This document shows positions 9,950 to 26,752 of a stretch of 32,560 bases of DNA, piece by piece. The DNA lies in contig CAILTI010000006.1 of the NCBI GenBank assembly GCA_903837075.1, positions 1 through 32,560 of the forward strand, given 5' to 3'. Source of the DNA: an uncultured bacterium (GTDB taxonomy: Bacteria > Patescibacteriota > Minisyncoccia > Phycocordibacterales > PALSA-1337). The position numbers were made by a program, and so were the translations under genes. The notes under the pieces are model-generated. The model searched no databases, was not told the DNA's origin, and saw nothing but the letters and a program-made list of their open reading frames with translations. Numbering within the stretch: position 1 is the stretch's first letter; every line of letters starts with the position of its first letter.

Positions 9950-11875
9950 TTACTTCAGAACATTTCGGAGAACTTCTTCTGGAACTTCCTTTATGTCTGT
10001 TTTTATTTCTGCTTTTTTCTCAACCGGCTTGATTTCAGTCGGTTTTTTCTCAACCACCTTCACTTGCGCCCCATTTTGAATTTCGGATTTAGAATTTAGA
10101 ATTTGTTTAGGATTTGGGATTTCGATATTAGGATTTTGAGTCTTTCTCAGATTTTCTATCTTCACAGTATCCGTCTTTGCCCCGCCCTTTTTCAACACCG
10201 CCGCCAATGCTGACTTCAGATCACTGACATTCTGTTTGGTTGGTACCTTCGGATCAACTTTCTGACTATTTGGCTTGGGCACCAGATTCGCGAGATGAAC
10301 TGGGGCAGGAGGGTTTAGGGGATGGGGTTTAGGGTTTAGGGACGATATGATAGGTTCTGGTTTTACAGGAATTTTAGCCACAGGAACATCCTTTGATATG
10401 ACTGATTCAACCTTCGCAGCAACCTTTGATAATATTGCCTCAAAAGGTTTGTGAGTTGGTGGTGTAGCGGGCTTCACCTTCTCTACGACATCATTCACGA
10501 CCACTGGTAGCGGAGGCTTTTCCTTACCAACCTTGGGAACTTGAGTGGAAGCACTACTCGCGCCTACAGGCAATACCTTTGCGGCCACCACCGGATTGTG
10601 GAACTTGACGACCGCCTCCTCAACTTCCGCTCGTGGCCTAGAGAACTGTTCACGGGATGCGGCGATGATCTCCTTCACGTATGAAACATCTGGATGAGCT
10701 ATCGGCGGCAATGTTGTTGCAGAAAATGGTGCCGACGAGAGTCCATCTATCATCAACTTCAGATATATCTGTGTAAAGCCTAGGTTGACCAGATCCTCGA
10801 TGACGAATTGCGGAGCGAATTCCTTTTCCAGCAATTCTGCATCTGATGCACCGACACGAAAAGAGATCATCGTACCAACGTTACCGAAAACTGCCGGCCT
10901 GACTATCTCATCCATCTGCTCGACATATTGGTGAGCGATCGTTAGGTTCAGTTTGTATTTGCGTGCCTCAGACAAGATGTCGGCAAAACTAGCGTTGGCG
11001 AAGTTCTGGAACTCGTCCACGTATAGATAAAAGTTCGGCAACATCTGCATCGTCCTGTCAGGTACATCCGCACGTGACATCGCCGCCAAGTATATCTTTG
11101 TTACCAGAAGTCCACCCAATAGTTTCATATTCTCATCACCTATCCTTCCCTTTGACAAGTTGATGATGACGATCTTTTTGCGGTCGATAGCTTCGCGAAA
11201 ATCGAATGATGAATGCGACTGACCGATCATGTTCCTGATGAGTGGATTGGCGGTAAATTGTCCAACCTTGTTCTGGATAGCAGGCACCGCCTCTGCGGCT
11301 TGGCGTTCTGTATAGTTAGCGAACTCTTTTTGCCAGAAAGCTTTGACCGAGGGGTCCTTGATATTGTTAACCACATCTTTACGATATTCCTTGTCAGAAA
11401 GCATCCTATTCACACCGAGTAATGTCGCACCAGGATACTCGAGGAGCGCCAGTAGCGTATTCGTCAAAATATATTCCATACGTGCCGACCAAGCATCTTC
11501 CCAGATCTTCTTGAACGTACTCATGAGACCGGAAGAAACTAGGTGTCTCTTGTCAGGATCGACTTGTTCGAGCACATTGAATGAAATGGGGTGTTCGATA
11601 TCGAATGGTGCGATATAGATAACATCCCTGATACGCTCCTTGGGAACATACTCGAGCATGAGGTCAGCAGTCTTGCCGTGCGGATCGATAAAGCACATTC
11701 CTTCCCCATTCTGGATATCCTGTGCGGCCATATTTTCCAGCATGGTAGACTTACCCATACCTGTCTTTCCAATGACGTAAACGTGTTTCGTACGATCCTT
11801 GGCTTTGATGCCAAACTTGACCCTCTTGTTACGAGCGTCAGTTTGAGCAAAATATGTGATTCTATTTTCATCCAT
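9950..11875 (-). CDS. TraD/VirD4-like type IV secretion coupling ATPase (HerA/FtsK superfamily) with long Pro/Lys-rich C-terminal tail
   Basis: KHVYVIGKTGMGKSTMLENMAAQDIQNGEGMCFIDPHGKTADLMLEYVP (Walker A), NFYLYVDEFQNFANASFADILSEARKYKLNLTIAHQYVEQM (Walker B and TraG/TraD C-terminal motif). Confidence 0.88.
   Translation of the reverse strand: MDENRITYFAQTDARNKRVKFGIKAKDRTKHVYVIGKTGMGKSTMLENMAAQDIQNGEGMCFIDPHGKTADLMLEYVPKERIRDVIYIAPFDIEHPISFNVLEQVDPDKRHLVSSGLMSTFKKIWEDAWSARMEYILTNTLLALLEYPGATLLGVNRMLSDKEYRKDVVNNIKDPSVKAFWQKEFANYTERQAAEAVPAIQNKVGQFTANPLIRNMIGQSHSSFDFREAIDRKKIVIINLSKGRIGDENMKLLGGLLVTKIYLAAMSRADVPDRTMQMLPNFYLYVDEFQNFANASFADILSEARKYKLNLTIAHQYVEQMDEIVRPAVFGNVGTMISFRVGASDAELLEKEFAPQFVIEDLVNLGFTQIYLKLMIDGLSSAPFSATTLPPIAHPDVSYVKEIIAASREQFSRPRAEVEEAVVKFHNPVVAAKVLPVGASSASTQVPKVGKEKPPLPVVVNDVVEKVKPATPPTHKPFEAILSKVAAKVESVISKDVPVAKIPVKPEPIISSLNPKPHPLNPPAPVHLANLVPKPNSQKVDPKVPTKQNVSDLKSALAAVLKKGGAKTDTVKIENLRKTQNPNIEIPNPKQILNSKSEIQNGAQVKVVEKKPTEIKPVEKKAEIKTDIKEVPEEVLRNVLK
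10071..10141 (-). repeat. Heptamer-period repeat (GAATTTA/GGATTTA-like) inside the TraD-like ORF
   Basis: GAATTTC GGATTTA GAATTTA GAATTTG TTTAG GATTTGG GATTTCG ATATTAG GATTTTG on the + strand; translated as NLRKTQNPNIEIPNPKQILNSKSEIQNG. Confidence 0.75.
10311..10341 (-). repeat. TTTAGGG-type repeat inside the TraD-like ORF
   Basis: gggtttaggggatggggtttagggtttagggacg on + strand; encodes SSLNPKPHPLNPPAP. Confidence 0.75.
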
Positions 11876-13976: not shown

Positions 13977-14017
13977 ATCCGCAACCGACTTTACAAGTTG
14001 GCTGCGGATTTTCTTAT
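13977..14017. terminator. Bidirectional terminator-like hairpin between convergent genes
   Basis: atccgcaaccgactt tac aagttggctgcggat ttt; near-complete stem with G-U tolerant mismatches between the convergent hypothetical gene and rsmI. Confidence 0.6.
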
Positions 14018-14769
14018 GTATTGGAAACTATCACTACGAACTCTCCACGAACCTTGTCTGGGTGAGCAGTAAAATACTCGAACACTTCCGCCGCTGTACC
14101 ATTCACCACTTCCTCGAATATCTTCGTCAGCTCCCTACAGATGGTGATCTTTTTAAGTCTAACCTCTGATTTCTTTGACTGATCATCAGCAGATTCACCG
14201 GATACAGAACATTGATCGTTGATCATTTTCAATGTCTTCATTATCCTATGTGGCGATTCGTAAAAAATCATCGTTCTTTCTGCTGACATGATCTCCGTAA
14301 ATAATGTCTGTCTACCCTTTTTATGAGGCAGGAATCCCAAGAAAGTGAATTCCGCACAAGGCACACCAGCGATAGAGATTGCCGCCGTCAACGCAGATGG
14401 TCCGGGGATCGCCTCGATCTTCAGTGCACCACTCACGATCTCATTATGTAATTCAACTCTGATCTTACTGATCAATTCCGATCCAGGATCAGATATACTC
14501 GGTGTACCAGCGTCAGAAACGAGGACGACATTTTGGATGACGGACTTATTCGACCTCAATATCCCCACTATCTCCTCAACTCTAGAAAGTTTACTATGCA
14601 TATGATAAGACATCGTCTTTACATGAATATCGTGTCTATCCAAAAGTCTCTTGGTCATTCTAGTATCCTCACAGAGAACGAGATCCGCATTGCGCAAAAC
14701 ATTCAAAGCTCGGAGAGTGATATCCTCGAGATTACCGATCGGTGTTCCAACTACTGAAAATGTGATCAT
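14014..14769 (-). CDS. rsmI: 16S rRNA (cytidine1402-2'-O)-methyltransferase RsmI
   Basis: FSVVGTPIGNLEDITLRALNVLRNADLVLCEDTRMTKRLLDRH ... VVLVSDAGTPSISDPGSELI ... AIPGPSALTAAISIAGVPCAEFTFLGFLPHKKGRQ. Confidence 0.95.
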   Translation of the reverse strand: MITFSVVGTPIGNLEDITLRALNVLRNADLVLCEDTRMTKRLLDRHDIHVKTMSYHMHSKLSRVEEIVGILRSNKSVIQNVVLVSDAGTPSISDPGSELISKIRVELHNEIVSGALKIEAIPGPSALTAAISIAGVPCAEFTFLGFLPHKKGRQTLFTEIMSAERTMIFYESPHRIMKTLKMINDQCSVSGESADDQSKKSEVRLKKITICRELTKIFEEVVNGTAAEVFEYFTAHPDKVRGEFVVIVSNT

Positions 14770-14832: not shown

Positions 14833-16152
14833 ATGGCTACAGATACGAAGATAATATACGTAACGAGAGAAATAGAGCGCGCCCTTGGAACAACTCCAAA
14901 TGAGCGCTATATCATCGTCTCAAACAAGACTAGATATGGTGAAGGTATAAAAGCACAATACCCTGATTCCGTCATACTGATCGAGAATCCAGACAAGAAA
15001 CTACTCGGCACAACAGACCTTTTGGCACATCCAGTCACAAAGGATTTGATAGCACAAATGTCTGGATCACCATCCCCTATACCCTATACCCTAAACCCTA
15101 GCCCCTCCTCTACCCCCTACCCCCAAAACCCTAGCGCCTCCCCTGTCTCCAACCTCGTCATCAATAACACTATTCGTGTCGAGACTTCGGCAAATCTATT
15201 GAAATGTAAATTTCTGAATCCACCAGCTTCCCTATCTGAACGAGTAGAAAACAAGATCACTCAACTTCGCTGGCTCGGACAACTAGGTTTGAAATACCTA
15301 CCACCTCATGCTGCCAAACTGACCAAGACCATCACCTGGAAAGGCGAGAATCCTTTTGTGATCCAGTGGAATCATGGACATACTGGCGACGGTACGATGC
15401 TCATAAAAACTTTCGATGACCTGCGTGCAGTTCAAGAGAAATTTCCAGAAAGAATAGCGCGCATAACTGCCTATGTCGCTGGCCCATCATTCACAGTAAA
15501 TGTCGTCGTTACACCAACTAGGATCATGATCGGCAATATCAGCTACCAGATCACTGGTATGATTCCTTTTACCGACGGATCATTCAGCACAGTAGGAAAT
15601 GATTGGTCACTGGCGAAGAAAATTCTCAGCGCCGAGGACGTGAAATACATAGCAAATATGGCAAATGAGATAGGTGTAAAGTTACAGGCTGATGGCTGGA
15701 GAGGGCTCTTTGGTATCGACCTCATCAAACACGACAACAGTGGTCGCATATTCCTCATAGAGATAAATGCTAGGCAACCCGCTTCGACAACCTTCGAATC
15801 ATCACTCCAGGAAAAATTACGCGCGACTGGTGCCCGCGGCCTGACGACATTCGAAGCACATGTCCGCGCACTAGCGGATCTACCGATCGATCAGGATCTC
15901 ATCGTTATAAATGACGGCGCACAAATAGTCCAACGCGTCACCAAGAACGTGCAGGAGATTTTCGACGACATCGCCATTTCATTAAAAAAACTAGGATACA
16001 GTGTCGTGGCGTATCAGAATACCGGCTACAACGCGGATCTCCTCCGTATCCAATCAGACCAAGGTATCATGGAATCACACAACTCATTCAATACCAAGGG
16101 TCGCGAGATCGCTGATGCGGTAAAGGGTGCACATATCAAGATAGAAATCTAG
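14833..16152 (+). CDS. ATP-grasp domain protein (D-Ala-D-Ala ligase / carboxylate-amine ligase-like)
   Basis: NPFVIQWNHGHTGDGTMLIKTFDDL ... GWRGLFGIDLIKHDNSGRIFLIEINARQPAST (ATP-grasp metal/ATP site). Confidence 0.75.
   Translation: MATDTKIIYVTREIERALGTTPNERYIIVSNKTRYGEGIKAQYPDSVILIENPDKKLLGTTDLLAHPVTKDLIAQMSGSPSPIPYTLNPSPSSTPYPQNPSASPVSNLVINNTIRVETSANLLKCKFLNPPASLSERVENKITQLRWLGQLGLKYLPPHAAKLTKTITWKGENPFVIQWNHGHTGDGTMLIKTFDDLRAVQEKFPERIARITAYVAGPSFTVNVVVTPTRIMIGNISYQITGMIPFTDGSFSTVGNDWSLAKKILSAEDVKYIANMANEIGVKLQADGWRGLFGIDLIKHDNSGRIFLIEINARQPASTTFESSLQEKLRATGARGLTTFEAHVRALADLPIDQDLIVINDGAQIVQRVTKNVQEIFDDIAISLKKLGYSVVAYQNTGYNADLLRIQSDQGIMESHNSFNTKGREIADAVKGAHIKIEI
15071..15142 (+). repeat. 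CCCTATA/CCCTAAA heptamer-type repeat inside the ATP-grasp ORF
   Basis: catcccctataccctataccctaaaccctagcccctcctctaccccctacccccaaaaccctagcgcctcccc, read as SPSPIPYTLNPSPSSTPYPQNPSASP. Confidence 0.85.
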
Positions 16153-16153
16153 C

Positions 16154-16930
16154 ATGAATACAAAGACACTATCAACTCGCGCTTCTTCTGTTATCGACCA
16201 ATACAACCATTTCGGCATAATGAATGCCGCCTGTTCAGTTCCCTATTACAATAACAAGACTCTCCGAGTTCGCGGTGCACTTCGGACCTACGCTGGTAAA
16301 GGTAGCCCCCAAGATATCCATGAAGAGATCGAGTCATTGATCCGGAAAAACCATATTTCTGCAGAGCAGGTCTCTGACGAAGCTCTGAAGAAAATCCTCA
16401 CTGATCAGAATATCGGTATCGATTGTTCCGGCTTTGCATATTACGTCCTGAATGCCGAAAGTGTAGAATCAGGCAAAGGTTCACTAGACAAACATCTATC
16501 ATTCGTGAATTGCACCGGGATCATCAGCAGGATCCGATGTTCTCTGCGACCGATCGAAAACTGTGACGTCAACACACTAGCCAATGACCGGAACAGCCGC
16601 GCGGTTCCTATTTCTGATATACACCCAGGAGATATGATCACCATGCAAGGTGATGAAAATGAACGCGAGCGAGATCATGTGCTGATCATTCACCAAGTCG
16701 ACTACCAGAATTTCGTACCAGTCAAATTGTTCTATTCTCATGCTGTCGCCTACCCAGAGGACGGTGTCTACGGTTCTGGCATAAAGCAAGGCACGATCGA
16801 GATCGTCAATGCGAACAAACTCCTGACTGAAGCTATCTGGACCGAAAGTGGCAAACAGGGTGCAAATGCCAACATTTTCATACGCGCCCAGAAATCCAAT
16901 ACCGAAATTCGTAGATTGAAGTGGATGTAA
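16154..16930 (+). CDS. NlpC/P60-like putative cysteine peptidase/amidase-fold protein
   Basis: NIGIDCSGFAYYVLNAE ... HPGDMITMQGDENERERDHVLIIHQVDY: Cys and downstream His arranged as in NlpC/P60 folds. Starts 1 nt after the ATP-grasp stop. Confidence 0.6.
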   Translation: MNTKTLSTRASSVIDQYNHFGIMNAACSVPYYNNKTLRVRGALRTYAGKGSPQDIHEEIESLIRKNHISAEQVSDEALKKILTDQNIGIDCSGFAYYVLNAESVESGKGSLDKHLSFVNCTGIISRIRCSLRPIENCDVNTLANDRNSRAVPISDIHPGDMITMQGDENERERDHVLIIHQVDYQNFVPVKLFYSHAVAYPEDGVYGSGIKQGTIEIVNANKLLTEAIWTESGKQGANANIFIRAQKSNTEIRRLKWM

Positions 16931-17159: not shown

Positions 17160-18287
17160 ATGATAACAATCCTGCAAGGAACAGCAGACCTAGCATATAT
17201 CATGAGTTTTGCCCTATTGGGCACGATTGTGGCCTTCCTTTGGGCACCACTACTGTCAAAGATCCTGTACAAACTGCACGTCATAAAAGGCCCAAAAATA
17301 GAGCTAAGTGCCCTTCGTTCTAACACTTACAAACACACGACACCGGTCATGGGTGGACTATTGGTCATCATAACCGTGGCAGTGATCACAATAGCCTTCA
17401 ATTGGTCTAGGAACTTCACGTGGGTACCGATAGGTGTGATGATACTATCTGCCGCATTGGGAGCTATTGATGACTTCATGAATATCTATGGCCGCGAGCG
17501 ACATTCCAGAAAACTGGACCATGTCATGCGCCTCATCAAGGTACACAAAGATTTCCGCATGCGAGCCTGGTATGTGATGACATTACCATGGACAGCATTC
17601 AAGAGAATGTCAGTCTGGTTCGGTTCGAGACCTGGAAAAGGTATATTCGTCCATGAAAAACTCATCCTCCAATTCATCGCAGGATCTCTAACTGCGTGGT
17701 GGATCTATGCCAAACTAGGTCCTGCTTGGCACTATATATATTTCCCATTTGACATCGCTCTGAATGCTGGAATATTCATCATACCGATCATCATCTTCAT
17801 CGTTATGTTCACCGCCAATGCTGTCAATATCGCTGATGGGATGGATGGTTTGGCAGGAGGAACACTCATCATCACATTTAGTGCCCTAACATTGCTATCG
17901 TGGATCAATGGCTTCGGCGAGATCGCTATACTGAATGCCACAACGATCGGAGCACTGGTAGCCTATACGTATTTCAATATTAAACCTGCCCGATTCATGA
18001 TGGGAGATGTCGGCAGTTTGGGCCTCGGAGCACTTCTCGCCGTGAATGCCATGGCCATAGGAGAGACCAGTGCACTATTTTTCCTCGGATTTATTTTTTA
18101 TATCGAGGCATTGTCTGTCGTCATCCAGGTCACCTCACGATACATATTTGGTCGCAAAGTTTTCCGCATGGCACCGATACATCACCATTTCGAATTAATA
18201 GGATGGAGTGAGGAGAAGACAGTGATGAGGTTCTGGATCATTCACTTCATCTTCGTTATTTTTGGATTCTGGTTGGCACTTCACTAA
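17160..18287 (+). CDS. mraY: Phospho-N-acetylmuramoyl-pentapeptide-transferase MraY
   Basis: HTTPVMGGLLVI, AIDDFMNIYGR, NAVNIADGMDGLAGG, ARFMMGDVGSLGLGALLA, APIHHHFELIGWSEEKTVMRFWI are MraY signatures. Confidence 0.92.
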   Translation: MITILQGTADLAYIMSFALLGTIVAFLWAPLLSKILYKLHVIKGPKIELSALRSNTYKHTTPVMGGLLVIITVAVITIAFNWSRNFTWVPIGVMILSAALGAIDDFMNIYGRERHSRKLDHVMRLIKVHKDFRMRAWYVMTLPWTAFKRMSVWFGSRPGKGIFVHEKLILQFIAGSLTAWWIYAKLGPAWHYIYFPFDIALNAGIFIIPIIIFIVMFTANAVNIADGMDGLAGGTLIITFSALTLLSWINGFGEIAILNATTIGALVAYTYFNIKPARFMMGDVGSLGLGALLAVNAMAIGETSALFFLGFIFYIEALSVVIQVTSRYIFGRKVFRMAPIHHHFELIGWSEEKTVMRFWIIHFIFVIFGFWLALH

Positions 18288-18329
18288 ACCCTATACCCTA
18301 TACCCTATACCCTAACCCCTAGACCCTCT
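18285..18329 (+). repeat. CCCTATA heptamer tandem repeat between mraY and the ATE-Mpl fusion
   Basis: taaaccctataccctataccctataccctaacccctagaccctct fills the whole intergenic gap and includes the mraY stop codon. Confidence 0.9.
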
Positions 18330-20582
18330 ATGAACTACCTTCACTGGAATGAAACCACCATCACCGACTTCTCGGACCAGAATATTTCCGATATGTACAA
18401 CCGTGGCTATGTCTTCACTCGACTTGGCAGAGGCATGATGCAACAGACGCGCTCGGTACGTATCGATCTGTCCAAATATTCACCGACTAGTGAAAATAGA
18501 CGCATATTGAAGAAAACAGACGGTATCACATTGGATACAGCGAGTCTGCCGATCACGAACTATGACTTCAAGATCGGTAAAATAGCCAAAGACTTCTATG
18601 AGGCCAAGTTCGGTCCAGGTATCATGAGCGCCCAGAAAATTAAGGAGATGCTAACTCAAGGCGAAAAAAGTAATTTCAATACTTTGTTTGAATACACTAT
18701 ACTCACTGACCCGACGAAGCCACCGCAAAATCCGGACATCTCTCCCATCGCCTACACTATCGCTTACGAGAATACCTCTTTACTACATTACTCATACCCT
18801 TTTTATGATCTCAACACAACTGAGAAAGATACCGGCCTCGGGATGATGATACGCGCTATCGAATATGCCAAAGCTGCTGGTCTGAAATATGTATATCTCG
18901 GCTCCCTCCAGCGTCCTAGCGACACATACAAACTGCAATTCGAAGGTTTGGAATGGTTCGACGGCACTACTTGGCAAACGGATCTCAAAAAAGTCAAAGC
19001 AGTACTCGGAGAAAAACAACTACCATCACTCAACATGACAAATCTGCCAAAAAAGATCCACGTTATCGGTATCTGTGGTGTGGCTATGAGCGCCATTGCC
19101 ATCGCTTTCAGAGAAAGAGGGGTAGAAGTTACCGGTAGTGACAAGGGATTCTATCCTCCCGTCTCAACAGAATTGGAAAAGCACAACATCTATTTCTATG
19201 CTGGCTGGCATCCAGAAAAGATGATGGAAGGTGGCGCACCAGACGCGATAATGATCGGCGCCGCTTCAGGTAGTCACAATCCAGAAACCATTTATGCCAA
19301 GGAGCATGATATCCCGATGTACTCATTTCCGGAGATGTTAGGTAAATATTTTGTCAGGGAAAATTCTATCGTCTGCTCTGGTACCTGGGGAAAAACTTCA
19401 TCTTCTGCCCTGTTGTCTTTCATACTAGAGCACGCAAAAAAAGATCCTTCGTATATGTTCGGTGGCGTCTCCCTATCCCACGGATCATCAGCCAAATTGA
19501 CAGACTCAACATGGAGTGTTTTCGAGGGCGACGAATACAAGAGTTCCCCAACAGACCTTCGAGCAAAATTTTTTCATTACAAACCGACCCATCTATTATT
19601 GACAGCAGTTTCTTGGGATCACGCAGATCTGTATACGACAGAAGACAGCTATTTCGAGGCGTTCAGAAAGTTGCTATCGGGAATGCCACATGATGGCCTA
19701 TTGGTCATGAGGGCCAACCAGCCCGGCATCGACAGGATCAGGAGTTCATTCGATGGGCGTGTTGTTAGTTATGGTTCTGCGATGCCTGGTAAATTTGACG
19801 AAAATGTAGTCAAACTTCATGACCATGCAAAATCGGATTCCCCGCAAATTTCACAGAATACGATAGCCCCAGACTACACATACTCTGATATTCACCAATC
19901 CAGATCTGGCATAGACTTCGCCATTTCACATAAAGGACAGATATTTCACATCCATTCCCCACTTCTCGGCGATTTTCAAGCGGAAAACATCACCGGCTGC
20001 TTCGCCTTGGCAAGTACTATGGGCATTGACGGAGCAGAGATCATCGAGGCTATTTCACTATTCAATGGATTGAAGAGAAGGATGGAAAAGCGTTTTGATG
20101 GCACGACCCCGGGAGGCGGAAAGACTATTTCGAATGGTATCACTGTGATCGACGATATCGCCCATTCACCAGAAAAGGCGTCATCCGTTCTGAAGACCTT
20201 GAAAGATATTTATGGTGGCAAAAATGGAGGACGGGTCTTTGCCATTTTCGAACCAAATATTGGAGGCCGCGAACGCCAGTCAGCCGACAAATATGATGGC
20301 GCATTCGTCGACGCCGACACAGTGATCATCCCGAAACTCACAAAGTTGAAGATCGCAGCCGAGTCATCAAAGACTCCCGACTCGACGGAGTCATCGCCGA
20401 TGGAAGGCGACGAATTGGCCGATAGGATCATGAGAACTCACAAATCAACCCTATTCATCGATGATGACAAGGCCTTAGTTGACTATCTATTAGCCAATAC
20501 AAAAAGCGGCGACGTGATCGCCTTCCTAGGTTCACATGGATTCAGGGGCATGATAGAAGCTGCAGGAAAAATGTTCAATTAG
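18330..20582 (+). CDS. Fusion: N-terminal ATE/Bpt-like (arginyl/leucyl-tRNA-protein transferase-type GNAT) domain + C-terminal Mpl/MurC-like Mur ligase
   Basis: N-term MMQQTRSVRIDLSKYSPTSENRRILKKTDG ... TGLGMMIRAIEYAKAAGLKYVYLGSLQRPSDTYKLQFEGLEWFDGTTW (ATE_C-like); C-term KIHVIGICGVAMSAIAIAFRERGVEVTGSD, CSGTWGKTSSSALL, FEGDEYKSSPTDLRAKFFHYKPTHLLLTAVSWDHADLY, RRMEKRFDG, VIDDIAHSPEKASSVL (Mpl/MurC). Confidence 0.83.
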   Translation: MNYLHWNETTITDFSDQNISDMYNRGYVFTRLGRGMMQQTRSVRIDLSKYSPTSENRRILKKTDGITLDTASLPITNYDFKIGKIAKDFYEAKFGPGIMSAQKIKEMLTQGEKSNFNTLFEYTILTDPTKPPQNPDISPIAYTIAYENTSLLHYSYPFYDLNTTEKDTGLGMMIRAIEYAKAAGLKYVYLGSLQRPSDTYKLQFEGLEWFDGTTWQTDLKKVKAVLGEKQLPSLNMTNLPKKIHVIGICGVAMSAIAIAFRERGVEVTGSDKGFYPPVSTELEKHNIYFYAGWHPEKMMEGGAPDAIMIGAASGSHNPETIYAKEHDIPMYSFPEMLGKYFVRENSIVCSGTWGKTSSSALLSFILEHAKKDPSYMFGGVSLSHGSSAKLTDSTWSVFEGDEYKSSPTDLRAKFFHYKPTHLLLTAVSWDHADLYTTEDSYFEAFRKLLSGMPHDGLLVMRANQPGIDRIRSSFDGRVVSYGSAMPGKFDENVVKLHDHAKSDSPQISQNTIAPDYTYSDIHQSRSGIDFAISHKGQIFHIHSPLLGDFQAENITGCFALASTMGIDGAEIIEAISLFNGLKRRMEKRFDGTTPGGGKTISNGITVIDDIAHSPEKASSVLKTLKDIYGGKNGGRVFAIFEPNIGGRERQSADKYDGAFVDADTVIIPKLTKLKIAAESSKTPDSTESSPMEGDELADRIMRTHKSTLFIDDDKALVDYLLANTKSGDVIAFLGSHGFRGMIEAAGKMFN

Positions 20583-20867: not shown

Positions 20868-21746
20868 ATGACACCATTAGAAAAATATCCTGAACTAGCA
20901 AAAGCACTCGGACTACGCGAGCTCTATTTCAAGCGTGAAGACTTGCACCCATACGGCTCACACAAGGGTCGTTCTATTCCGGCGATGATCGACCACTACA
21001 TGGAACAAGGTTCAGAGGAATTCGTCATCTCCTCATCAGGCAATGCGGCTCTAGCTGCCGCTCTGTATATAGAGAAGATCAACTCTGATCCTTCTCGAAT
21101 ATCCAGTCCCATGACCCTAGACATCTTTGTTGGCAACCACATAGCGCCACATAAACTGGAGAAATTGAATGCTTTGGAAGACGATAATATCAGCGTCCTC
21201 ATCAAGGAGCGACCTCTCCAATCCGCCACCCTAGCTAGTCAGGTAGGGGCCGTTAGTTTACGCCAATCGACAGATGACACCGCCCTACTCGGTTATGGGG
21301 CTCTAGCGCGAGAATTGGGCTCTACAAAGGGTATTGGGGCTATATTTATGGGCACATCTTCTGGTACCACTGCACAGGCCCTAGCCATGTATTTTACCAA
21401 TGAAAACCAGCCAGTTCAGATCCACATCGTGCAAACCTCTTCATGTCACCCTATTGCTGACGGTATCGAAACTTTCGATGGTGAAAATATTGATTCTATA
21501 GCAGATGCTATCGTTGACAGAACTGCGATGCGCAAATCTGCCCTGATTCCACTCATCAAGAAAACTGCAGGTCACTCTTGGGTAGCGTCGAATGTCGAGA
21601 TCATCGCCGCACGTGATATAGTACGAAAACATACCGGCCTAGAGATATCTACAAATAGTGCTTTGTCGGTGGTTGGTGCAATGCAGTCAGCATATAGAGG
21701 TTGGGAGATCAACGGCGCAGTGGTTTGTATGATCTGTGGAGAATAG
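20868..21746 (+). CDS. PLP-dependent enzyme of threonine synthase / fold-type II family
   Basis: LGLRELYFKREDLHPYGSHKGRSIPAMIDHYMEQGSEEFVISSSGNAALAAALY (PLP-Lys region, SSGN phosphate-binding loop), IFMGTSSGTTAQALA. Confidence 0.8.
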   Translation: MTPLEKYPELAKALGLRELYFKREDLHPYGSHKGRSIPAMIDHYMEQGSEEFVISSSGNAALAAALYIEKINSDPSRISSPMTLDIFVGNHIAPHKLEKLNALEDDNISVLIKERPLQSATLASQVGAVSLRQSTDDTALLGYGALARELGSTKGIGAIFMGTSSGTTAQALAMYFTNENQPVQIHIVQTSSCHPIADGIETFDGENIDSIADAIVDRTAMRKSALIPLIKKTAGHSWVASNVEIIAARDIVRKHTGLEISTNSALSVVGAMQSAYRGWEINGAVVCMICGE

Positions 21747-21753
21747 AATAGAG

Positions 21754-21866
21754 AATGTTCAATGTTCAATGTTCAATGTTCAATGAATGTTCAATATTCA
21801 ATATTCAATGACGCAATGTTCAGTGAATGACTAATTGAATATTCGTTGCGTTATTGAACATTGGTC
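21754..21866. repeat. TTCAATG/TTCAATA heptamer repeat block, left flank of the four-helix-bundle gene
   Basis: aatgttcaatgttcaatgttcaatgttcaatgaatgttcaatattcaatattcaatg... followed by ...ttgcgttattgaacattgg. Confidence 0.9.
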
Positions 21867-22275: not shown

Positions 22276-22347
22276 AATGCTCCATTGAACATTTAGTTAT
22301 TAGTTGTCGAATATTCAATGAACATTGAATATTGAATATTGAACATT
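22276..22347. repeat. Inverted-orientation ATTGAAT/ATTGAAC heptamer repeat block, right flank of the four-helix-bundle gene
   Basis: ctccattgaacatttag...cgaatattcaatgaacattgaatattgaatattgaacatt; contains the palindrome aatattcaatg-aa-cattgaatatt. Confidence 0.88.
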
Positions 22348-22349
22348 TT

Positions 22350-23669
22350 TTATAGACTTCTAACCGCTCTCACGAATCTCTCTCCTCTCTCCTTGCGTGA
22401 GCCATCAGAGCCATATGCCTCAAAACCTGGACTAAAGAGAACACGATCACCTTTTCTAGAATTTTCCATAGCCAATCGAGCCGCCTCTTCTATAGATGGA
22501 GCTGAAATGATATTTACGTCCTGTATTTCCCGTAGGAATGCCCTCTCACGCATCGTGCCGCTCCCAGGAACCAGGACTACGGCATGCGCATATTGCGGAA
22601 GCTTAGCAAATAATTTCGTGTAATCACTACCATTGTCTGCACCCCCCAATACGAGCACTACATTCTTATTTATCGACAGAGATTCGAGAGCCAATTCCGT
22701 AGAACGAGAAACGACTGAGGCTGTATCATTATAGAATTCTACATTCCTCAACTTCTTGATCAATTCCATGCGACCCTTTAGCGGCTTCCAAACCTTCATC
22801 AACCTCTCAGCTACATCGTCGTCGACTTTAAATAGCTTCGCTGCTTGGAGTGCGAGCGACGCATTTTCCTTGTCCTGAGGGCCACGCCCGACGAATTCCC
22901 AGGCATCTGGAATGATCCCGGTCTTGGTTCGAAGCATTTTGGCCTTTGGCTGTATCTTCAATGCATGAATGAGATCGACTACAGTATCATTGCCCACGAT
23001 AAAATTGTTATACGTCTGATATTCCAGCAATTCGAAGGCTGCATTTGAGTATGTACCCTTACTCGGTAAAGTCGTAAAGATGGCGACATGTGGACTCATG
23101 CGCGCAGCATGCAATTCTATAGCCATCGACTCCGTGACTCTCATGAGCACGATATCTCCACTCTTGATCTTTTTGAGATGAGAGATCGTGCCATTATCTG
23201 ATTCTGGGTCGATACAGTAAAGTTTCTGATCACCAAAATCAGCACATGCGCTCTCGAGCATCGGTGCGAGCATGGACACGACAGTAGATTTGCCACACAT
23301 TCCCATAACACCAACAACACTGACCGGAGGGGCCTGCTTGAAGAATACTGTTTCTGGATATTCGATCGGGATATTATTGGCTTTGACTTCTTTCAAGAAT
23401 GACGAATCGCGAGGATACTCGTGCGACAAGATCACCATATCCATGTCGAGTAGATCATCGACAGGAACTGGCCCACAGACATAATTGGCTAGACCGATAG
23501 ATCGGAGAAAGACAAGGTAGTTCTTCAGTCTCGCTTCACTTCGTAGATCATATATAGCAACTAGTGCACCGGCCTTGATGAGATATTTCACATCCTCCAT
23601 CATTTCTCCATGCAAACCGAGTCCGATGACGGCTACCATCTTACCTTTAAAATAATCTCTAGATGCCAT
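22350..23669 (-). CDS. murD: MurD-like Mur ligase (UDP-N-acetylmuramoylalanine-D-glutamate ligase family)
   Basis: GKMVAVIGLGLHGEMMEDVKYLIKAGALVAIYD, VVGVMGMCGKSTVVSML, KPLKGRMELIKKLRNVEFYNDTASVVSRSTELALESL, VVLVLGGADNGSDYTKL, VLFSPGFEAYGSDGSRKERGERFVRAV. Confidence 0.85.
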   Translation of the reverse strand: MASRDYFKGKMVAVIGLGLHGEMMEDVKYLIKAGALVAIYDLRSEARLKNYLVFLRSIGLANYVCGPVPVDDLLDMDMVILSHEYPRDSSFLKEVKANNIPIEYPETVFFKQAPPVSVVGVMGMCGKSTVVSMLAPMLESACADFGDQKLYCIDPESDNGTISHLKKIKSGDIVLMRVTESMAIELHAARMSPHVAIFTTLPSKGTYSNAAFELLEYQTYNNFIVGNDTVVDLIHALKIQPKAKMLRTKTGIIPDAWEFVGRGPQDKENASLALQAAKLFKVDDDVAERLMKVWKPLKGRMELIKKLRNVEFYNDTASVVSRSTELALESLSINKNVVLVLGGADNGSDYTKLFAKLPQYAHAVVLVPGSGTMRERAFLREIQDVNIISAPSIEEAARLAMENSRKGDRVLFSPGFEAYGSDGSRKERGERFVRAVRSL

Positions 23670-25126: not shown

Positions 25127-25924
25127 TTATATAATCGTAGTGACTTTTTCATACAACATCGGCCAACTATCCTGTCGCATCCTGAATTTCGTCCCGTGAT
25201 TATGTCCACTTCGTGCATCAAAATCAACGAGAATTTTTGCCTCCTCAATTGCTTTTAGGAATCCCTCGAAACTGAATTTCTGCAGCATCATGACTTTCGT
25301 GTATTTATAATACTCCTTCCGACGGAATGTTTTTACTTCCGACTGAACATAGAAACTGTTGAGCAGTTTCGTGCCGGCCTTGTGTTCAAGGTCGTCAAAT
25401 CCCCAGTACGGTTGCGGGTCGAGCTCTCCGAGGCCTATCCGCTTTTTTACGGATTGGAGCCAGTGGGCGTGACGGCCGTCCACACTCTTTGCATCGAAAG
25501 AAATAAGAACCTTCTTTTCGGCACGGTCAATCTTGACCATAAAACCGCGATCGCTTCTTGAAAGACCATGGATCGTTTGCCGAAAACTCATTTCTCCCTT
25601 CTCGTATTTCTTACCATCTTCCTTATGAGCCCAGCCGTATTTCGGCAGGAGTACCTGTGGGACAAAGCGGATTGCGCGTGGCGATGGTTCAATATGAAAA
25701 AGTGTGCAGAGCGATGTAGTATCAATCCTCTGCGCCTTGAGCTCCCACTCGGCCGCATTCGGAATTGGTAGGTTATTTTCCTTAATTCCAAGCAGATCCT
25801 CCAGAGTGTTACCAATACCACCAACGTTTCCCTTTCTTGTATTCAATATCCAGTCCATAGCAGCAATTTCCCTCAGCTTTTCGATGAGAGATTGCTTGGT
25901 ATAGATTTTTGGTTTGTTAGGCAT
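25127..25924 (-). CDS. MvaI/BcnI-family type II restriction endonuclease
   Basis: LREIAAMDWILNTRKGNVGGIGNTLEDLLGIKENNLPIPNAAEWELKAQRIDTTSLCTLFHIEPSP: GIGNTLE...EWELKAQR nuclease core as in MvaI/BcnI-type enzymes. Confidence 0.82.
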   Translation of the reverse strand: MPNKPKIYTKQSLIEKLREIAAMDWILNTRKGNVGGIGNTLEDLLGIKENNLPIPNAAEWELKAQRIDTTSLCTLFHIEPSPRAIRFVPQVLLPKYGWAHKEDGKKYEKGEMSFRQTIHGLSRSDRGFMVKIDRAEKKVLISFDAKSVDGRHAHWLQSVKKRIGLGELDPQPYWGFDDLEHKAGTKLLNSFYVQSEVKTFRRKEYYKYTKVMMLQKFSFEGFLKAIEEAKILVDFDARSGHNHGTKFRMRQDSWPMLYEKVTTII

Positions 25925-25936
25925 AAAATTATTGGA

Positions 25937-26752
25937 TTATAAAAGCTTGGTCTGCGATTTATGTTGTTGAATCCTTTCGTCGGCCATCTTGCAGTAATCT
26001 GGCGAGATCTCGATGCCTATATATTTCCTGTCAGCATTGATAGCCGCCAATGCCGTTGTGCCGGACCCCATGAACGGATCGAGTATGATTTTGGCATCGG
26101 TTGATAATACAATTCGATCGATGAGATCGACAGGAAATGCCGCCGGATGTTCGTTATTCATCTCCTGAGTAAATTCCCATACATCCCCCAGACCACTAGC
26201 CCTTGGCTGAAGCTTGAACTTCGGCTTGGCGATGAGATATATTACCTCGTAGGTCGGCACGAAATATCCTGGATTGAAATTGAATCCACCTTTTCGTCTC
26301 CAGATGATGATTTGGCGTACTGGAAAACCGCTTACAATATCTTGCCGATCCTGAAGAAGGCCTCCTTGTACTCGCCATTTGTGATTGTAAAAAATTGCCC
26401 CGTCATCAGGAATGATCCGCAGCATTTCGGTCAGACATTCTCGCTGCCACTTCACGTATTCATCATGAGGCATGCAATCGTTGTGATGCGTGTATCCCTT
26501 CTGAAGTGCCGCATTTGCCCACTTGCCTCCGCGACCATCCTTCATTCCGTTGCCGGTCGAATTCTTGAGATTGTATGGCGGTGAAGTGATGATCAGATCA
26601 ACTGATCCGTCTGGTATGCGCTTCATCACTTCGACCGTGTCGCCACAGATGATATTATTAAGAAAACATGCAGGGAATCCAAACTCGTCTCCCGCCATTT
26701 CCGACGCAGTCATTATTTCTCTTAATTTTGGGCGAGTTTGTAGTACTGGCAT
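25937..26752 (-). CDS. Site-specific DNA methyltransferase (N4-cytosine/N6-adenine family)
   Basis: NIICGDTVEVMKRIPDGSVDLIITSPPYNLKNSTGNG ... KIILDPFMGSGTTALAAINADRKYIGIEISPDYCKMADERI. Confidence 0.92.
   Translation of the reverse strand: MPVLQTRPKLREIMTASEMAGDEFGFPACFLNNIICGDTVEVMKRIPDGSVDLIITSPPYNLKNSTGNGMKDGRGGKWANAALQKGYTHHNDCMPHDEYVKWQRECLTEMLRIIPDDGAIFYNHKWRVQGGLLQDRQDIVSGFPVRQIIIWRRKGGFNFNPGYFVPTYEVIYLIAKPKFKLQPRASGLGDVWEFTQEMNNEHPAAFPVDLIDRIVLSTDAKIILDPFMGSGTTALAAINADRKYIGIEISPDYCKMADERIQQHKSQTKLL

Follow-up and report, generated by a model that had tools for sequence, protein, structure and literature searches.

We report a conserved gene pair of CPR bacteria which we regard as a strong candidate for another way of beginning stem-peptide synthesis. 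One gene encodes a relative of the aminoacyl-tRNA-protein transferases ATE1 and Bpt (ATE-like), the other a UDP-MurNAc ligase of the Mpl type (Mpl-like). Both were found in a stretch of 32,560 nucleotides from an uncultured bacterium (hereafter the window; contig CAILTI010000006.1), where they form a single reading frame. It is the conserved pair, and not this fusion, that is the larger finding. The association is well supported; that the two enzymes form one pathway, and that in many CPR genomes of the Paceibacteria type this pathway has taken the place of MurC and MurD, is in our opinion only a little short of probable.

The locus and the status of the fused frame

The features of the window on which the argument depends are these:

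14014..14769, minus strand: RsmI, a flank marker of the locus that holds canonical murC and murD in sister families
14833..16152, plus strand: ATP-grasp ligase
16154..16930, plus strand: NlpC/P60-like protein
17160..18287, plus strand: MraY (phospho-MurNAc-pentapeptide transferase), directly upstream of the fused frame
18330..20582, plus strand: fused ATE-like and Mpl-like frame, 750 aa
18330..19034, plus strand: residues 1-235, predicted ATE_C-family aminoacyl-tRNA-transferase-like domain
19035..19038, plus strand: ATGA, the ATG of the ligase overlapped by a TGA of the +1 frame
19035..20579, plus strand: residues 236-750, Mpl-type UDP-MurNAc:peptide ligase
20868..21746, plus strand: PLP-dependent enzyme (threonine synthase/dehydratase family)
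22350..23669, minus strand: degenerate MurD-like protein

The window also contains short tandem arrays with a period of 7 bp and differing units (CCCTATA, AATGTTC, ATTTAGG and others), some of them intragenic (10073-10136, 10310-10341, 15075-15100, 18284-18327, 21754-21822, 22319-22347), and an MvaI/BcnI-family restriction endonuclease beside an N6/N4 DNA methylase (25127-26752(-)).

The original prediction of an uninterrupted 750-aa frame is correct, since 18330-20582(+) is open over 750 codons from ATG to stop. That the fusion represents an enzyme architecture we can no longer maintain. Alignment against GTDB genomes gave 249 candidates for orthologues of the N-terminal domain, and 80 loci were retained (Taylorbacteria, Magasanikbacteria and other Paceibacterota/Parcubacteria records). 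The orthologues are stand-alone genes of about 220-250 aa, and none of the 80 loci has a fused frame, which rules out a conserved fusion. The fused frame is confined to this genome; it may have arisen recently, or it may be an error. Past VKAVL, the +1 frame of the window terminates at a TGA that shares bases with the start codon of the ligase (ATG at 19035). This resembles the ATGA gene overlap of several relatives, and a single additional base relative to their arrangement would explain the fusion. Given this one-base distance, the lack of fused relatives and the runs A5 and A6 just upstream, an assembly or base-call error is entirely possible for the frame itself (the gene pair aside). We nevertheless lean slightly against it, because neither domain contains a stop or a frameshift and because neighbours in the cluster do fuse elsewhere: in G105 (L053:5289-7193(+)) the ATP-grasp and NlpC/P60-like proteins form one ORF of 634 aa.

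The pair, on the other hand, is stable. At 72 of the 80 loci the ligase gene follows downstream in the same orientation. It lies within 60 bp at 33 of them; at the other 39 the distance is larger, frequently because of inserted genes, which are mostly unrelated. The ligase is missing at eight loci, seven of which end no more than 1.3 kb from the ATE-like gene; the true exception is L154, where the ATE-like gene is on its own and neither MraY nor the ligase nor any other gene of the cluster lies within 4 kb of it. In Paceibacteria-type CPR the whole cluster consists of the ATP-grasp, NlpC/P60-like, MraY, ATE-like, Mpl-like and PLP genes; its flanks are formed by RsmI, a DUF4015 protein and a TraD-like protein at one end, and by MurD-like, RadC and pyruvate kinase genes at the other. 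Within about 4 kb, MraY was found at 79 of the 80 loci, the NlpC/P60-like gene at 61, the PLP enzyme at 57 and the ATP-grasp gene at 51; contig ends truncate many of these loci.

The structure model of the ATP-grasp protein is similar to PurK, to an ATP-grasp peptide ligase from Streptomyces and to an L-amino acid ligase. The first peptide bond could have another maker, which counts against the central role that we give below to the ATE-like protein: the ATP-grasp enzyme, together with the NlpC/P60-like and PLP proteins, might build a peptide for the Mpl-like ligase to load, while the ATE-like protein would have a secondary task such as capping. Location in the same cluster and the fusion in G105 are consistent with this. 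However, the ATP-grasp gene is missing at the locus in distant clades that keep the pair; in G057, G061 and G069, where both ATP-grasp and PLP genes are lacking there, the ATE-like gene still adjoins the Mpl-like gene with at most one gene in between. We regard this explanation as improbable. A role of the ATP-grasp enzyme as a substitute for Ddl was rejected, since 30 of 32 genomes from the two groups (with and without the ATE-like gene) have Ddl.

The two proteins of the pair

Judged from sequence and from a structure model, the ATE-like domain is a member of the ATE_C / aminoacyl-tRNA transferase superfamily with a GNAT fold. Residues 40-217 match NCBIfam arginyltransferase models (NF002343, E 6.6e-14). 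The match of the window protein to Pfam ATE_C is weak (21-24 bits, just below the cut-off of 25), and 18 of 21 orthologues match this family. An AF2 model of residues 1-235, built from 21 orthologues, has a pLDDT of 90 and a pTM of 0.88; its best match in the PDB is human ATE1, followed by A-PGS, L-PGS, MprF, yeast ATE1, FemX and LFTR. The ATE/FemX GNAT fold originally proposed for residues 1-230 has thus found its structural match. ATE1, A-PGS, L-PGS, MprF, FemX and LFTR all draw amino acids from tRNA. Invariant positions of the domain are R41, S42, R44, S54-E55-N56, F158-Y159, G169, Y189, G191, Y200-K201, F204 and E208.

The protein is not an ATE or Bpt proper, however, if the Cys-rich N-terminal motif is taken as the mark of these enzymes. 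Its absence had been noticed before, and indeed residues 1-235 contain no cysteine at all, while a Bpt-type protein recovered by similarity (L266) has both CPYL and CAECSAC motifs. The two types share ATE_C homology and motifs of the RIxxxxF, FY, YLG and YKxxF type, but the ATE-like protein sits in a wall cluster and is tied to a wall ligase. Like FemX/FemAB, MprF/L-PGS and LFTR, it would be a GNAT-fold aminoacyl-tRNA transferase. FemX acts on UDP-MurNAc-pentapeptide; the target of the Fem enzymes is the residue-3 side chain, and they are found together with MurC and MurD. Unlike FemAB, the ATE-like protein has only ~225 aa and gives no match to PF02388 (FemAB/FemX), ATE_C and Acetyltransf_6 being the only families matched. 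The invariant Y200-K201-x-x-F204 of the ATE-like protein may be the counterpart of the region around the catalytic Lys305 in FemX (PMC12945691).

For the remainder of the frame, first described as Mpl/MurC-like, the choice can be narrowed to the Mpl type. All three Mur ligase domains are matched above cut-offs (residues 242-736), and the UDP motif, the P-loop (GTWGKT) and the DH motif are kept. In the tree the ligase groups with E. coli Mpl (support 98), apart from MurC, and all ATE-linked ligases form one clade (support 97) within the clade that contains E. coli Mpl. An insert before the DH motif and a Tyr after the EGDE motif are further likenesses to Mpl. Neither equivalog cut-off is reached, with 197 of 389 bits for Mpl (TIGR01081) and 234 of 335 bits for MurC (TIGR01082).

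The ligase departs from known Mpl in the C-terminal domain. In the main ATE-linked group, the motifs proposed to bind the tripeptide in Psychrobacter Mpl (FAHH, EPRSNT and SNG; PMC3060825) read IAHS/HAPT, EPNxGG and GSHGFRG instead, and they are altered in yet another way in the ligases of G057 and G061. Psychrobacter Mpl uses L-Ala-D-Glu about 200-fold and L-Ala 370-fold more slowly than the tripeptide (PMC3060825); with such a preference, an altered peptide site is what one would expect of a ligase that carries a different peptide. A further difference is that Mpl is an accessory enzyme of recycling (PMC3060825), whereas in the near-complete relatives tested this ligase is the cell's only one of the MurC/Mpl type.

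Replacement of MurC and decay of MurD

The chromosomal slot of the pair (TraD, DUF4015 protein, RsmI, ..., MurD, pyruvate kinase) is occupied by canonical MurC in sister families. The pair would hold the pathway position of both MurC and MurD; where the ATE-like gene is present, MurC is replaced and MurD is lost or degenerate. Each of eight near-complete genomes with the ATE-like gene has just one PF01225 ligase, and it is the Mpl-like one. Among 119 related genomes the ATE-like gene occurs in 51 and a MurD above the curated TIGR01087 cut-off in 44, with no overlap, though kinship among these genomes means that Fisher p values overstate the evidence. Both the ATE-like gene and a ligase of the clade (scored at 400 bits or above) are present in 48 genomes; three have the ATE-like gene only, and one has the ligase only, at a contig edge. 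On a tree of TraD, RsmI and the DUF4015 protein, used as a species proxy, the trait changes 3 to 6 times. Independent pairs go nearly always in the expected direction, and the supported ones are too few for significance; for the ATE-like gene against MurD there are three well-supported independent pairs, all concordant (p 0.25). It must also be said against a bypass of MurC and MurD that 24 of the 68 genomes without the ATE-like gene likewise lack a MurD above the cut-off, some of these genomes being incomplete.

Within the family of the window, genomes with the ATE-like gene have retained a MurD-like gene. We aligned its products with MurD of E. coli and with six canonical proteins from sister families, looking at the catalytic residues E157 and H183, at the substrate residues K348 and S415, and at K198. 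The last is the carbamoylated lysine required for MurD activity (PMC4816537). All five residues are kept in all six canonical sister-family proteins. In the window and in eight relatives (nine of nine copies), E157 is changed to R, H183 is deleted together with its block, K198 has become A or P, and K348 and S415 are lost, so that by these residues the window protein does not qualify as a MurD. In more distant genomes with the ATE-like gene there is no such MurD-like match, the matches being the Mpl-like ligase and MurE/MurF-like proteins.

The MurE-like and MurF-like proteins deserve a separate remark. In the copies sampled across the order (L001:1354-2643(+), L002:949-2262(-) and L240-L252) they have no N-terminal UDP-MurNAc-binding domain, and a hydrophobic or amphipathic stretch directly precedes the P-loop domain. 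It is possible that these proteins act on lipid-linked precursors. The loss of the domain was dropped as a feature specific to the ATE-like group, as it occurs alike in genomes without that gene.

The state of MurD bears on the simplest alternative, in which the Mpl-like ligase acts as MurC and adds L-Ala, the ATE-like protein being an ordinary neighbour or an N-degron transferase. Overexpressed E. coli Mpl does complement a murC mutant (PMC3060825). But MurD would then remain necessary, and in these genomes it is absent or catalytically broken; moreover, the ATE-like gene stays with the ligase despite many unrelated insertions, and its product is without the Cys motif of ATE/Bpt. We consider this alternative largely refuted and very improbable.

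A more serious rival, although in our view an unlikely one, is that the Mpl-like ligase loads murein peptides of a host or prey, making MurC and MurD unneeded, while the ATE-like protein adds a side-chain or bridge residue to UDP-MurNAc-peptide or lipid II in the manner of FemX. This comes close to the salvage and branch formation of the original prediction. This rival has in its favour that Mpl as known serves recycling (PMC3060825), that the structure search matched FemX and L-PGS too, and that the ATE-like gene adjoins MraY. In three genomes without the ATE-like gene (G060, G101 and G108; L190, L194 and L195), the best MurC-type ligase is an Mpl with the true motifs and there is no MurD above the cut-off; these bacteria possibly make their wall from salvaged tripeptide, and they imply that an Mpl-type ligase can work without an ATE-like partner. 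A profile search near the G101 gene gave no match to a hidden ATE relative. Against this rival, the tripeptide-binding motifs are altered in precisely the ATE-linked clade, and a pure branching enzyme need not accompany the loss of MurC and MurD. FemAB does not track the ATE-like gene, occurring in 3 of 51 genomes with it and 9 of 68 without, and replacement of FemAB by the ATE-like protein was discarded, as the two do not alternate. Branch formation is not the best-supported reading because MurC and MurD, and not FemAB (rare in either group), vanish with the pair; salvage is likewise not favoured for a ligase that is the sole one of the MurC/Mpl type in the near-complete relatives tested.

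A proposed tRNA-dependent start of the stem peptide

What MurC and MurD together load onto UDP-MurNAc is an L-amino acid joined to D-Glu. Bpt carries out the same reaction as ATE1, with Leu. In that reaction ATE1 takes an L-amino acid from tRNA and joins it to an Asp or Glu at the N terminus of the substrate (PMC10115844). We infer the catalysis itself, its donor amino acid and acceptor, and the order of steps. The ATE-like enzyme would draw an L-amino acid from aminoacyl-tRNA, Ala being the obvious candidate, and join it by a peptide bond to an acidic residue at its alpha-amino group; this acceptor would be D-Glu or D-Asp in free form, or else the residue with which a small peptide begins. 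The Mpl-type ligase would then use ATP to load the resulting peptide onto UDP-MurNAc, and MurE-like, MurF-like and Ddl enzymes would be left to add the later residues. With a ready-made peptide loaded on UDP-MurNAc, both MurC and MurD would become dispensable. Glutamate racemase is rare in genomes with and without the ATE-like gene, so that even D-Glu at position 2 is a presumption; the racemase was set aside as a discriminator of the two groups for the same rarity.

The proposal builds on the folds and families of the two proteins, the conserved cluster, the in-place replacement of murC, the exclusion and decay of MurD, and the changed motifs of the ligase. A functional link of the two domains, as first suggested from the fusion, now has much stronger grounds than a single fusion could give, because the two genes keep their order, occur together, and take the place of MurC and MurD. 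The specific chemistry, that is, formation of the first stem-peptide bond from aminoacyl-tRNA by the ATE-like enzyme, with Mpl-type loading, in a large part of Paceibacteria, we put forward tentatively, as possible but somewhat on the doubtful side.

To our knowledge, MurC and MurD are regarded as universal steps of bacterial wall synthesis, and in the open-access literature we found nothing relevant on their loss, or on an ATE-like wall enzyme, in CPR. A caution follows for annotation: 'Mpl' in these genomes should not be read as recycling. If the proposal is true, there is a second way to begin the stem peptide, in which charged tRNA is linked directly to the main chain of the wall, and this offers a testable prediction for the cell-wall chemistry of CPR bacteria, which is almost unknown.
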